Assembly (NCBI RefSeq): GCF_009791395.1
Contig: NZ_WSZK01000015.1
Span: forward strand, 124,001-188,000
DNA from: Halomarina oriensis
GTDB lineage: Archaea > Halobacteriota > Halobacteria > Halobacteriales > Haloarculaceae
Direction: 5' to 3'
DNA length: 64,000 nt
Shown here: positions 17,461 through 22,934 of the stretch, piece by piece
How positions within the stretch are numbered: position 1 is the stretch's first letter
Layout: each line of letters begins with the position of its first letter
Made by a program: the position numbers and the translations under genes
The notes under the pieces: model-generated
Seen by the model: the letters and a program-made list of their open reading frames with translations, nothing else
The model's database searches: none
What the model was told of the DNA's origin: nothing

Positions 17461-17625
17461 TAGTCAGAGAGGTTACAATTGGGACTGTCCGTCTCGTGGC
17501 ATACTCTCGTATAGGCCCGGCTGAGTTTGGGACGTGAGACCCACACTCTGCAGCTAGCACCACCCCACCCACACGTCCACTCCGCTGGCGTGCGCCTCAA
17601 GTACGCGCGACTCCACCATCGGACA

Positions 17626-19680
17626 ATGAGTGACGCTGGGTCTCCGTTGCAGCCAGACCGGCCGGGGAAGGACCGACCGTTCCGTGTCGAGGCACCGTTC
17701 GACCCCGCCGGTGACCAGCCGGAAGCCATCGAGCAGTTGGCCGACGGCTACCGACAGGGGATGAGCGAACAGACGCTGCTGGGGGTGACGGGGTCGGGGA
17801 AGACCAACACCGTCTCGTGGGTCGTCGAGGAGATTCAACAGCCCACGCTCGTCATCGCGCACAACAAGACGCTCGCCGCACAGCTCTACGACGAGTTCCG
17901 GAACCTGTTTCCCGACAACGCCGTCGAGTACTTCGTCAGCTACTACGACTACTACCAGCCCGAGGCGTACGTCGAGCAGACGGACACCTACATCGACAAG
18001 GACGCCTCCATCAACGACGAGATCGACCGGCTACGCCACTCCGCGACCCGGTCGCTGCTGACGCGTGACGACGTCATCGTCGTCGCCTCCGTGTCGGCCA
18101 TCTACGGTCTCGGTGACCCGCACACGTACGAGGACATGGCGCTGCGCCTCGAAGCCGACCAGTCCATCGACCGCGACGAACTCCTGAAACGGCTCGTCGA
18201 CCTGAACTACGAGCGCAACGACGTGGACTTCACGCAGGGCACGTTCCGGGTTCGCGGCGACACCGTCGAGGTGTACCCGATGTACGGTCGCTACGCCGTC
18301 CGCGTGGAGTTCTGGGGCGACGAGATAGACCGGATGCAGAAGATAGACCCGCTCGAAGGCGAGGCGAAAGGCGAGCAGGAGGCCGTCCTCGTCCACCCGG
18401 CGGAGCACTACTCGCTGCCCGAAGCGCGCATGGAGGAGGCCATCGCCGAGATAGAGGACCTGATGCACGAGCGCGTGAGCTACTTCGAGCGCTCGGGCGA
18501 CCTGCTCGCCGCCCAGCGCATCGAGGAGCGCACGACGTTCGACGTCGAGATGATGCGCGAGACGGGCTACTGCTCGGGCATCGAGAACTACTCCGTCCAC
18601 CTCGACGACCGACAGCCGGGGGACGCCCCGTACACGCTGCTCGATTACTTCCCCGACGACTTCCTCACCGTCGTCGACGAGTCACACGTCACGCTCCCGC
18701 AGGTGAAGGGGCAACTCGCGGGCGATAAGTCCCGCAAGGACTCGCTGGTCGGCAACGGCTTCCGCCTGCCGACGGCGTACGACAACCGCCCGCTCAGCTT
18801 CGAGGAGTTCGAGGAGAAGACCGACAACCTGCTCTACGTCTCGGCGACGCCGGGCGACTACGAACGCGAACAGAGCGAGCAGATCGTCGAACAGATCGTC
18901 CGCCCGACGCACCTCGTCGACCCGAAGGTCGACATCTCACCCGCCGAGGGGCAGGTCGAGGACCTGCTCGACCGCATCGACGAGCGCATCGAACGCGACG
19001 AACGCGTCCTCGTCACGACACTCACCAAACGGATGGCCGAGGACCTGACCGAGTACCTCGAAGAGTCGGGCGTGGCCGTCGAGTACATGCACGACGAGAC
19101 GGACACGCTGGAGCGCCACGAGTTGGTCAGAGGCCTCCGTCTCGGCGAGTTCGACGTGCTCGTCGGCATCAACCTGCTCCGGGAGGGGCTGGACATCCCC
19201 GAGGTGAGCCTCGTCGCCATCCTCGACGCCGACCAGCAGGGGTTCCTCCGCTCGGAGACCACGCTCGTCCAGACGATGGGGCGTGCGGCGCGAAACGTCA
19301 ACGGCGAAGTCGTCCTCTACGCCGACGACACCACCGACGCGATGGCCGCCGCCATCGACGAGACCCAGCGCCGTCGTGAGATTCAACAGCAGTTCAACGA
19401 AGACCACGGCTACACGCCGACGACCATCGAGAAGGACGTCGGCGAGACGAACCTGCCGGGGAGCAAGACCGACACGAAGAACGTCGCCGACGTCGACCCC
19501 GACAGCGCCGAGGAGGCCGAGGAGTACGTCGCGGACCTCGAACGCCGGATGAACGAGGCCGCCTCCAACCTGGAGTTCGAACTCGCCGCCGACATCCGCG
19601 ACCGCATCCGGACGGTCAGCGAGGCGTACGAACTCGACCGCGAGGAGGAGGGCGTCCCGGCACCCGCAGAAGAGTTCTGA
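17626..19680 (+). CDS. uvrB: excinuclease ABC subunit UvrB
   Basis: Damage-verifying helicase-like subunit of bacterial-type nucleotide excision repair, 684 residues. Walker A GVTGSGKT (53-60), the damage-probing beta-hairpin region [21 protein letters not shown] as the DExH motif, helicase motifs V/VI ([22 protein letters not shown]), and a C-terminal UVR domain ([24 protein letters not shown] in the last 50 residues) that contacts UvrC. The ATG at 17626 is chosen because the upstream frame is not protein-like. uvrC lies 8 kb away on the other strand; uvrA is not in the window. Confidence 0.97.
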
Positions 19681-19711: not shown

Positions 19712-20222
19712 TCAGTCCTCGCCGGGTACCGCCCCGTCCGACTCCGCGCTCGCTTCTACTTCGGAGTCACCGGCCGACGTCTCGCCGTCGACGGTCACCC
19801 CGCCGTCCGGCCCGTCGCGTTCGTTCACGTCGAGTTCGCCGTCACCGGACGCAGTCCGGTTGCCCGAGGGGTCGTCAGACCCCTCGCTGTCGCCGTCGTA
19901 GTCCCCGTCGAGCAGTTGCTCGCGGGGCGTCGTCCCCTTGTCGTCGACGGACATGTCCGCGTAGCCCTTCTCCATCCGGATGCCGTGCCACTCGACGCCC
20001 CACTCGGTGAGGCGGGCAACCGTCTGATTGGCCGCGTCCCACGGCCGGGCGGTCCAGACGATGATGGTGTGGCCCGCGTCGTACTGCTCGTCGACCCAGT
20101 GGACCATCTCCTCGTCGGGGGCCGGAGCCTCGGTCGTCCGGCCGTCCGGTCGTCCGGTCGTCCTCCTCGCCCTGCGTGAGCGTAGCGTCGAAGTCGACCG
20201 CGATGTGCTGCTGCTCGTTCAT
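19712..20222 (-). pseudogene. HAD-like phosphatase broken by an 8-bp tandem repeat
   Basis: The N terminus in one frame (MNEQQHIAVDFDATLTQGEED, from 20222) has the HAD nucleophile motif DFDAT. The rest lies in another frame from about 20131 down: APAPDEEMVHWVDEQYDAGH, then TIIVWTARPWD (motif II) and RMEKGYADMSVDDKG (motif III). The frames are separated by four near-identical 8-bp units at 20131-20162; two units (16 bp less) or five would join them, two giving a 164-residue protein. The tail from about residue 100 is low-complexity and acidic. Either a decayed gene, an assembly slip, or a slippage-controlled switch. Confidence 0.7.
20131..20162. repeat. 8-bp tandem repeat inside the HAD-like gene
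   Basis: Four consecutive units on the plus strand: CGGTCGTC, CGGCCGTC, CGGTCGTC, CGGTCGTC. Because 8 is not a multiple of 3, each gain or loss changes the reading frame; four copies put the gene out of frame. Confidence 0.8.
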
Positions 20223-20360: not shown

Positions 20361-20444
20361 GAGAGACCACGGTAGTGACCAGACAGCGCAAACTGCCGTC
20401 GTCGGTCGAGAGACGGCCGGAGACGGCGAGTGGCGACACTACCA

Positions 20445-22934
20445 ATGAGTCAACGAACCAGTGACCACGACGGACTGCGCTCGGTCGTCGAGCGCGCACG
20501 CACCGGCTACGAGCAGGTCGTCGACGAGGCGGCGACGGACGAACTCGTCGAGACGGTCGAACGGAGCCTCCCGCGCGACGCGGACGCCCGGACGAGAGAC
20601 GACGCCATCGTCGACGCCGCCAGCGCCCGCATCGAGCGCGACCCGGCCTACGAGCGCGTGGCGGCGCGGGTCGCCCGGTGGCGGTACTACCGTCGGCTGC
20701 TCGGAACCGTCCCCGAGGACGACGCCGCGTTCGCCGACGCCTACCGCGAGTCGTTCCGCGACAGCCTCACGAACGGCGTCGAGGCGGGGAGGCTCGACGG
20801 ACGGATGACCGAGTTCGACCTCGACGCGCTGGCCGACGCGCTCCGTCCCGAACTGGACGAGCGACTGGGCTACGTGGCGATGGAGACGCTCGTCCAGCGG
20901 TACTTCCTCCGCGTCGACGACGAACCCACCGAACTCCCGCAGGTGTTCTGGATGCGGGTCGCGATGGGACTCGCGCTGAACGAGGACGACAGAACCGGCC
21001 GTGCTATCGAGTTCTACGAGACGATGGCCCGTCTCCGGTTCGTCCCCTCGACGCCGACACTGTTCCACGCCGGGACGAGCCACGCTCAGCTCTCCTCGTG
21101 TTACCTGACGACGGTCCCGGACGACCTCGACGCCATCTTCGACGCCTACGGCGAACACGCCAACCTCTCGAAGTGGTCCGGCGGTCTCGGCACCGACTGG
21201 ACGCCCGTGCGGGCGACCGGCGCGACCATCGAGTCGACCGGGGTCGACTCCACCGGCGTCGTCCCGTTCCTGAAGATTTCGAACGACGTGACGGCGGCCA
21301 TCAACCGCTCGGGGAAACGTCGCGGGGCGGCCTGTGCCTACCTGGCGTGCTGGCACCTCGACTTCCCGGCGTTCCTCGACCTGCGACGCAACACGGGCGA
21401 CGAACGCCGCCGCACCCACGACATGAACACCGCGGCGTGGATTCCGGACCTGTTCGTCCAGCGCGTCCGTGAGGGCGGCCAGTGGACGCTGTTCTCACCC
21501 GACGAGGTGCCCGACCTCCACGAGACGTACGGCAGCGCGTTCGTCGAACGCTACGAGGAGTACGAAGCGCAGGCCGACGCGGGCGACATCGAGCAGTTCG
21601 AGCGGGTCGACGCCGCCGACCTCTGGCGGAGGACCCTCACCCGCCTGTTCGAGACGGGCCACCCGTGGCTCACGTTCAAGGACCCCTGTAACGTCCGCTC
21701 GCCACAGGACCACGCGGGCGTCGTCCGCTCGTCGAACCTCTGTACGGAGATTACGCTCAACACGTCGGCCGAGGAGACGGCGGTCTGCAACCTCGGGTCG
21801 GTCAACCTCTCGCGGCACGTCGTGGACTCCGGCGCGGACGAGGCGGCAGACGCCACGGTCGGTGACCGCGCGGCGACGCTCGACCGAGCGCGTCTCGCCG
21901 ACACCGTCGAGACGGCGATGCGACTGCTCGACAACGTCGTCGATCTGAACTTCTACCCCAGCGAGAAGGCCGAGCGCTCGAACCTGCGCCACCGGCCCGT
22001 CGGTCTCGGCGTGATGGGGTTCCACGACGCGCTCACCGCCCTCGGCGTCCCGATGGCCAGCGAGGCGGCGGTCGAACTCGCGGGCGACCTGCAGGAGCGC
22101 GTCGCGTATCACGCGATTCTGAACTCCGCTCGACTGGCCCGCGAACGCGGCACCTACGAGAGCTACGCGGGGTCGAAGTGGGACCGCGACGTCTTCCCGC
22201 AGGACACCATCGACCTGCTCGAACGCGAACGCGGCGAGTCGGTGGCCGTCGACCCCGAGGAGTCACTCGACTGGTCGACGGTCCGCGAACACGTCGCCAC
22301 CCACGGGATGCGCAACTCCAACACGATGGCCGTCGCACCGACGGCGACCATCTCGACCATCGCCGGGACGACGCCCTCGGTCGAACCGCGCTACTCCAAC
22401 CTCTACGTCAAGTCGAACATGTCCGGCGAGTTCACGATGCTCAACGAGCGCCTCGTCGCGGACCTGAAACGCGAGGGCCTCTGGGACGACGGGATGGTCG
22501 ACCGCCTGAAGTACCACGACGGGTCGGTTCAGGAGATAACCGACGTTCCCGAGTCGGTTCGAGAACGCCACCGGGGCGCGTTCGAGATAGACCCACGCCA
22601 CCAGATTCGAGTCGCCGCCCAGCGCGGCGTCTGGATAGACCAGAGCCAGTCGCTCAACGTCTTCTTCCCCGGCACCGACGGGAGCGTCCTCGACGACGTC
22701 TACCAGCGCGCGTGGGAGTCGGGGCTGAAGACGACCTACTACCTGCGAACGCTCGGCGCGAGTCAGGTGGAGAAGTCGACGCTCGACCTCTCGGAGTACG
22801 ACGGGACACAGTTCCGGGACCGAGGTGACGACGGAGAGGACACGGCCACAGACGGGACTGACGGGACCGGCGAGACCGACCCGTCCCGTGACCTGCCGAG
22901 CGTCGAGGACCCGACCTGCGACGCCTGCCAGTAG
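20445..22934 (+). CDS. nrdA: ribonucleoside-diphosphate reductase, class I large subunit
   Basis: Large (alpha) subunit, 829 residues, reduces ribonucleotides to deoxyribonucleotides. Catalytic features: redox Cys219 (AQLSSCYL), the NLCTEI loop with the thiyl-radical Cys, the partner Cys in TAVCNLGSVN, and the radical-transfer pair YYLRT near residue 767, which argues for a class I enzyme fed by a small subunit. The C-terminal CDACQ supplies the shuttle cysteines (825, 828). No ATP-cone motif (VxKRDG) is visible at the N terminus, so overall activity control may be missing or located elsewhere. The small subunit follows after 51 bp. The ATG at 20445 is favoured over one at 20430. Confidence 0.88.
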   Translation: MSQRTSDHDGLRSVVERARTGYEQVVDEAATDELVETVERSLPRDADARTRDDAIVDAASARIERDPAYERVAARVARWRYYRRLLGTVPEDDAAFADAYRESFRDSLTNGVEAGRLDGRMTEFDLDALADALRPELDERLGYVAMETLVQRYFLRVDDEPTELPQVFWMRVAMGLALNEDDRTGRAIEFYETMARLRFVPSTPTLFHAGTSHAQLSSCYLTTVPDDLDAIFDAYGEHANLSKWSGGLGTDWTPVRATGATIESTGVDSTGVVPFLKISNDVTAAINRSGKRRGAACAYLACWHLDFPAFLDLRRNTGDERRRTHDMNTAAWIPDLFVQRVREGGQWTLFSPDEVPDLHETYGSAFVERYEEYEAQADAGDIEQFERVDAADLWRRTLTRLFETGHPWLTFKDPCNVRSPQDHAGVVRSSNLCTEITLNTSAEETAVCNLGSVNLSRHVVDSGADEAADATVGDRAATLDRARLADTVETAMRLLDNVVDLNFYPSEKAERSNLRHRPVGLGVMGFHDALTALGVPMASEAAVELAGDLQERVAYHAILNSARLARERGTYESYAGSKWDRDVFPQDTIDLLERERGESVAVDPEESLDWSTVREHVATHGMRNSNTMAVAPTATISTIAGTTPSVEPRYSNLYVKSNMSGEFTMLNERLVADLKREGLWDDGMVDRLKYHDGSVQEITDVPESVRERHRGAFEIDPRHQIRVAAQRGVWIDQSQSLNVFFPGTDGSVLDDVYQRAWESGLKTTYYLRTLGASQVEKSTLDLSEYDGTQFRDRGDDGEDTATDGTDGTGETDPSRDLPSVEDPTCDACQ

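Follow-up and report, generated by a model that had tools for sequence, protein, structure and literature searches.

The window analysed here, a stretch of 64,000 nucleotides, comes from a genome of the genus Halomarina (a 4.07 Mb draft in 50 contigs, 99.6% complete), in agreement with the haloarchaeal origin assumed by the original prediction. On its minus strand, between uvrB and the gene for the large subunit of ribonucleotide reductase, it carries a gene of the HAD phosphatase type whose start and remainder are separated by a tandem array of 8-bp units (Table 1). TRF places this array at 20131-20163, with a period of 8, 4.1 copies, 92% match and no indels. The four tandem copies that had been proposed are therefore present, with the refinement that they are not all identical: unit 3 (GACGGCCG) carries one A>G change, so the copies do not represent a fresh perfect duplication. 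In minus-strand orientation, the array begins exactly 60 bases past the ATG at 20222. The other indel-free tandem arrays in the window have periods that are mostly divisible by three, as expected of a gene-dense genome.

Table 1. Features at and around the octamer array, in window coordinates
Feature	Position	Strand	Remarks
uvrB	17527..19680	+	Conserved neighbour; gene name from translated sequence
HAD gene, remainder	19712..20130	-	Other frame: linker, first helix, WTARPW (motif II), VDDK (motif IV), acidic tail
In-frame insertion of ~48 bp in acidic tail	19841..19888	-	YDGD / SEGSDDPSGNRTASGD / GELD; absent from relatives; boundaries by eye
Frame reached after four units	19875..20130	-	Non-homologous tail; stop at 19875-19877 (115-aa ORF)
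TCC (Ser) codon	19949..19951	-	Relatives have Tyr in (V/M)YVDDK; possible second lesion
CCC-CGA	20115..20120	-	In frame read with four units; conceivable +1 shift site
Array of four 8-bp units	20131..20162	-	GACGACCG GACGACCG GACGGCCG GACGACCG; +16 bp relative to five aligned relatives
HAD gene, start	20163..20222	-	ATG at 20222, motif I DFDAT; 20 codons ahead of array; homologous to relatives
Ribonucleotide reductase, large subunit	20430..22934	+	Conserved divergent neighbour; gene name from translated sequence

A reading frame split by the array

From its ATG the HAD gene reads MNEQQHIAVDFDATLTQGE, the DFDAT part being MNEQQHIAVDFDATLTQGEEDD. The part that follows the array, PDEEMVHW...WTARPW...SVDDKG (MVHWVDEQ onward), terminates at 19712 and lies in a frame one base apart from that of the DFDAT part. 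The predicted break between the DFDAT start and the motif II/III part is thus confirmed, and the HAD motifs of the window copy are not all contained in one reading frame. When copy numbers from one to seven were tried, VDFD and VDDK came together in a single ORF only with two units (164 aa) or five (172 aa), which is the arithmetic that had been put forward, while the four units present give an ORF of 115 aa that lacks VDDK. The array has in common with phase-variable genes a tandem repeat of non-triplet unit in which the number of copies determines the frame.

Independent use of the downstream ORF can be rejected: its frame has no ATG, GTG or TTG start upstream of the array, and its first start codon, the ATG at 20107, stands 3' of motif I, leaving a product without the nucleophile. 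A second way around the break would be a +1 ribosomal frameshift, programmed or fortuitous, at the CCC-CGA that follows the array, by which the four-unit gene could give some full-length protein. The downstream part does need a +1 shift, and CCC followed by CGA sits in the frame that is actually read; moreover, CCC_UGA serves as a +1 site elsewhere (PMC5009743), and a haloarchaeal virus has been proposed to use a +1 shift (PMC8211752). However, CCC-CGA weakly resembles known sites and is not conserved in the relatives, whose genes need no shift, and recoding is rarely documented in Archaea, the sole reported cellular case being a -1 shift (PMC8211752). We therefore regard such a rescue as very improbable.

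Intact relatives and the enzyme they encode

Among named relatives, Halomarina rubra ZS-47-S is the nearest. Five relatives were aligned across the spot of the array; all five have an open frame and an interval shorter by exactly 16 bp. Apart from the window copy, the frame is intact in every full-length relative read, among them the two closest Halomarina genes, which are syntenic (H. rubra and G056), and the remaining homologs read are free of the array and of stops within the domain. A repeat tract kept among orthologs, such as a contingency locus usually shows, is lacking here, the array being absent from all relatives examined. With two units, the window sequence would read DDRTTEAPAPDEE, which is near DDRTTDDPNPDEE of G056 and DDRTAADPDPDEE of H. 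rubra.

The window, H. rubra and G056 have in common the gene order uvrB-HAD-ribonucleotide reductase, and this conserved order identifies their HAD genes as orthologs. The window copy therefore has intact counterparts at the same locus, as a pseudogene is expected to have. From the open frame and the shorter interval of the relatives, we infer that the ancestor had the two-unit length and that 16 bp were gained in the window lineage.

The distribution of the gene is patchy, with a match of any kind in 22 of the 95 genera of the sampled order. Three well-assembled Halomarina genomes (G051, G053 and G054) have no clear homolog, and we found no convincing remnant beside uvrB in the Halomarina genomes that are without the gene. 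Given this patchiness and its absence from the three congeneric genomes, the gene is dispensable. In the search of genome contigs, the broken downstream ORF used as query gave no matches, and an alignment of intact relatives did produce them.

By sequence and predicted structure, the intact relatives are minimal cap-less HAD phosphatases: the orthologs possess the DxDxT of motif I, the T of motif II, the DD of motif IV and a predicted Rossmann-like fold. The assignment made in the original prediction is borne out by DFDxT, WTARPW and YVDDK in these intact genes. Their closest solved structures, by sequence and predicted fold, are those of phage AfhF (9iqw), BT0820 (2obb) and Vibrio cholerae 1xpj; these proteins and the EcbF/BcbF family have the same three motifs in the same order, whereas the haloarchaeal subfamily is distinguished from the BT0820/EcbF/BcbF group by its acidic tail. 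In five haloarchaeal HAD members the tail, which follows the domain, is EF-hand-like (DGYDGDGELDxxE); in the window this motif is split by about 16 residues.

None of the named Pfam and NCBIfam models reaches its curated cut-off. The H. rubra ortholog scores about 16 bits against the NCBIfam models for BT0820 and EcbF/BcbF, whose cut-offs are 162-165, and therefore does not qualify as an equivalog; a curated family assignment was rejected on these scores. The gene encodes a solitary small phosphatase, and its link to capsule-synthesis phosphatases is distant and by sequence only. In the predicted model of the H. rubra protein (mean pLDDT 79.6), the array position corresponds to a linker of low confidence that joins motif I to the first long helix.

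Rarity of the array and condition of the gene

The array is a genuine feature and does not represent a conserved element. Its 16-bp core gave two matches at no more than one mismatch, against a shuffle mean of 0.07, and has a single occurrence in the whole genome. In 2.32 Mb (57%) of the genome no other period-8 array reaches four copies, and no such array appeared in third-order Markov copies of the same 2.32 Mb, nor in Markov copies of 800 kb. A related, order-wide search of 392 genomes gave nothing beyond scattered and imperfect matches of three units. We rejected a conserved regulatory element, as the repeat is sporadic and imperfect elsewhere in the order and occurs once in this genome. 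We likewise rejected the idea of a genome rich in such switches: coding non-triplet arrays with at least four copies and a period of at least 7 number one in 2.32 Mb.

The sole other non-triplet array of comparable size in these 2.32 Mb is intergenic, with an 11-bp unit (TGCGACGGCAC) in about five copies (L183 11073-11130; G000:C24 about 151073-151130); it is flanked on one side by the 3' end of a large restriction gene resembling DNA methylases and on the other by a regulator of the AsnC type. A further 8-bp unit in about 3.6 copies, apparently intergenic, is found just past a PCMT-like gene (L172 7321-7350; G000:C16 about 167321-167350).

Beyond the frame break, the window copy shows two features that suggest further damage, the Tyr>Ser change next to VDDK and the 48-bp insertion in the tail. 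The Tyr is invariant in 23 bacterial and archaeal homologs; in the alignment, phage 9iqw has Ile at the equivalent position, so the change to Ser need not abolish activity. The downstream part appears from its codons to be under purifying selection, with a dN/dS of about 0.18 relative to H. rubra. Private nonsynonymous and synonymous codon changes stand at 4:4 in the window copy, compared with 2:6 and 2:7 in its two closest relatives, a nonsynonymous excess that is not significant (Fisher p=0.36). As the rest of the gene is so well kept, the gene either lost its frame recently or is in frame at times.

These data also bear on the possibility of an assembly or sequencing error, in which case the gene would be intact in the true genome, with two or five units. 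According to the original prediction, reads and close relatives that all show two or five units would point to such an error. The relatives from other species do have the two-unit length; this is not by itself proof of an error, and indicates a lineage-specific expansion. The uniform length in relatives would nevertheless suit an error, as would the 50-contig state of the draft and the good conservation of most of the gene. However, an array of 33 bp fits within one short read, contains no homopolymer and is situated deep inside an 838-kb contig, and the distinct base of the third unit makes a collapse or duplication by software unlikely. On balance, an error at this place seems improbable.

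Null allele or contingency locus

The original prediction had further proposed that the gene switches on and off within a population. In such a contingency locus, frequent gain and loss of 8 bp would set the phosphatase ON (two or five units) or OFF (one, three, four or six). This would be consistent with a non-triplet unit near the 5' end of the coding sequence, where a single gain restores the frame, and with the apparent purifying selection on the downstream part. The low-confidence linker is probably a flexible loop, in which eight extra residues might be tolerated, and the solved related phosphatases include a 'capsule biosynthesis protein'. There is also a resemblance to simple-repeat (SSR) phase variation in the mod gene of Haemophilus influenzae, where AGTC repeats form a non-triplet coding tract in the 5' part of the gene and copy number sets the frame.

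However, mod has over 30 units, against only four here, one of them interrupted, and the present array is known from one genome sequence. Since the repeat tract is absent from every relative examined, there is no conserved tract to serve as a switch, nor is there a second coding array of such a kind in the 57% of the genome that was read. The phase-variable genes described in the literature mostly code for surface-exposed proteins or enzymes of DNA modification (PMC3711429), a class to which a solitary cytoplasmic enzyme encoded between uvrB and ribonucleotide reductase does not appear to belong. The lack of this lone phosphatase in other Halomarina and the Tyr>Ser change at an otherwise invariant site are further contrary evidence. 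The proposed population switching is thus not supported, and a contingency locus of this kind is unlikely. Slightly less likely still is the specific proposal that the octamer array works as a haloarchaeal slip-strand switch, OFF with four units and ON with five or two, of a sugar-phosphate or nucleotide phosphatase. Among the titles and abstracts listed, which came from papers free of subscription, none reported SSR phase variation in a haloarchaeon. If the switch were true, it would be a rare case of simple-repeat phase variation in Archaea, and would extend to haloarchaea a type of simple-repeat contingency locus whose known examples come mainly from host-associated bacteria.

A one-off null mutation appears to fit the sequence data better than a contingency locus. 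We therefore favour, at a probability of roughly three in four, the view that this dispensable gene is a young pseudogene or a recently formed null allele, produced by expansion of an 8-bp repeat. The ancestral gene would have had a short GC-rich 8-bp near-repeat of two-unit length in the coding linker after motif I. In the window lineage, this near-repeat would have gained 16 bp (two units) by tandem duplication or replication slippage, and the expansion would have broken the frame, leaving the 115-aa product with motif I and without motifs II-IV. Slippage, which had been suggested as the origin of the repeat, is a likely cause alongside tandem duplication, in view of the 16 bp gained privately relative to the five relatives. 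The allele would presumably have lost its activity and be neutral and, in practice, irreversible; one further unit could in principle restore the frame, and we saw no sign that this occurs frequently or is put to regulatory use.

With frameshift null alleles and young pseudogenes formed by short tandem duplication, the locus shares a lineage-specific non-triplet gain, intact orthologs of ancestral length, a conserved gene order and a patchy, dispensable gene. It differs from typical duplication null alleles in having two extra 8-bp units instead of one duplication, such that one more would restore the frame. The locus is a warning against taking a solitary repeat that breaks the frame as evidence for phase variation, and it may cleanly illustrate the expansion of a short coding near-repeat and the resulting knockout of a dispensable gene.
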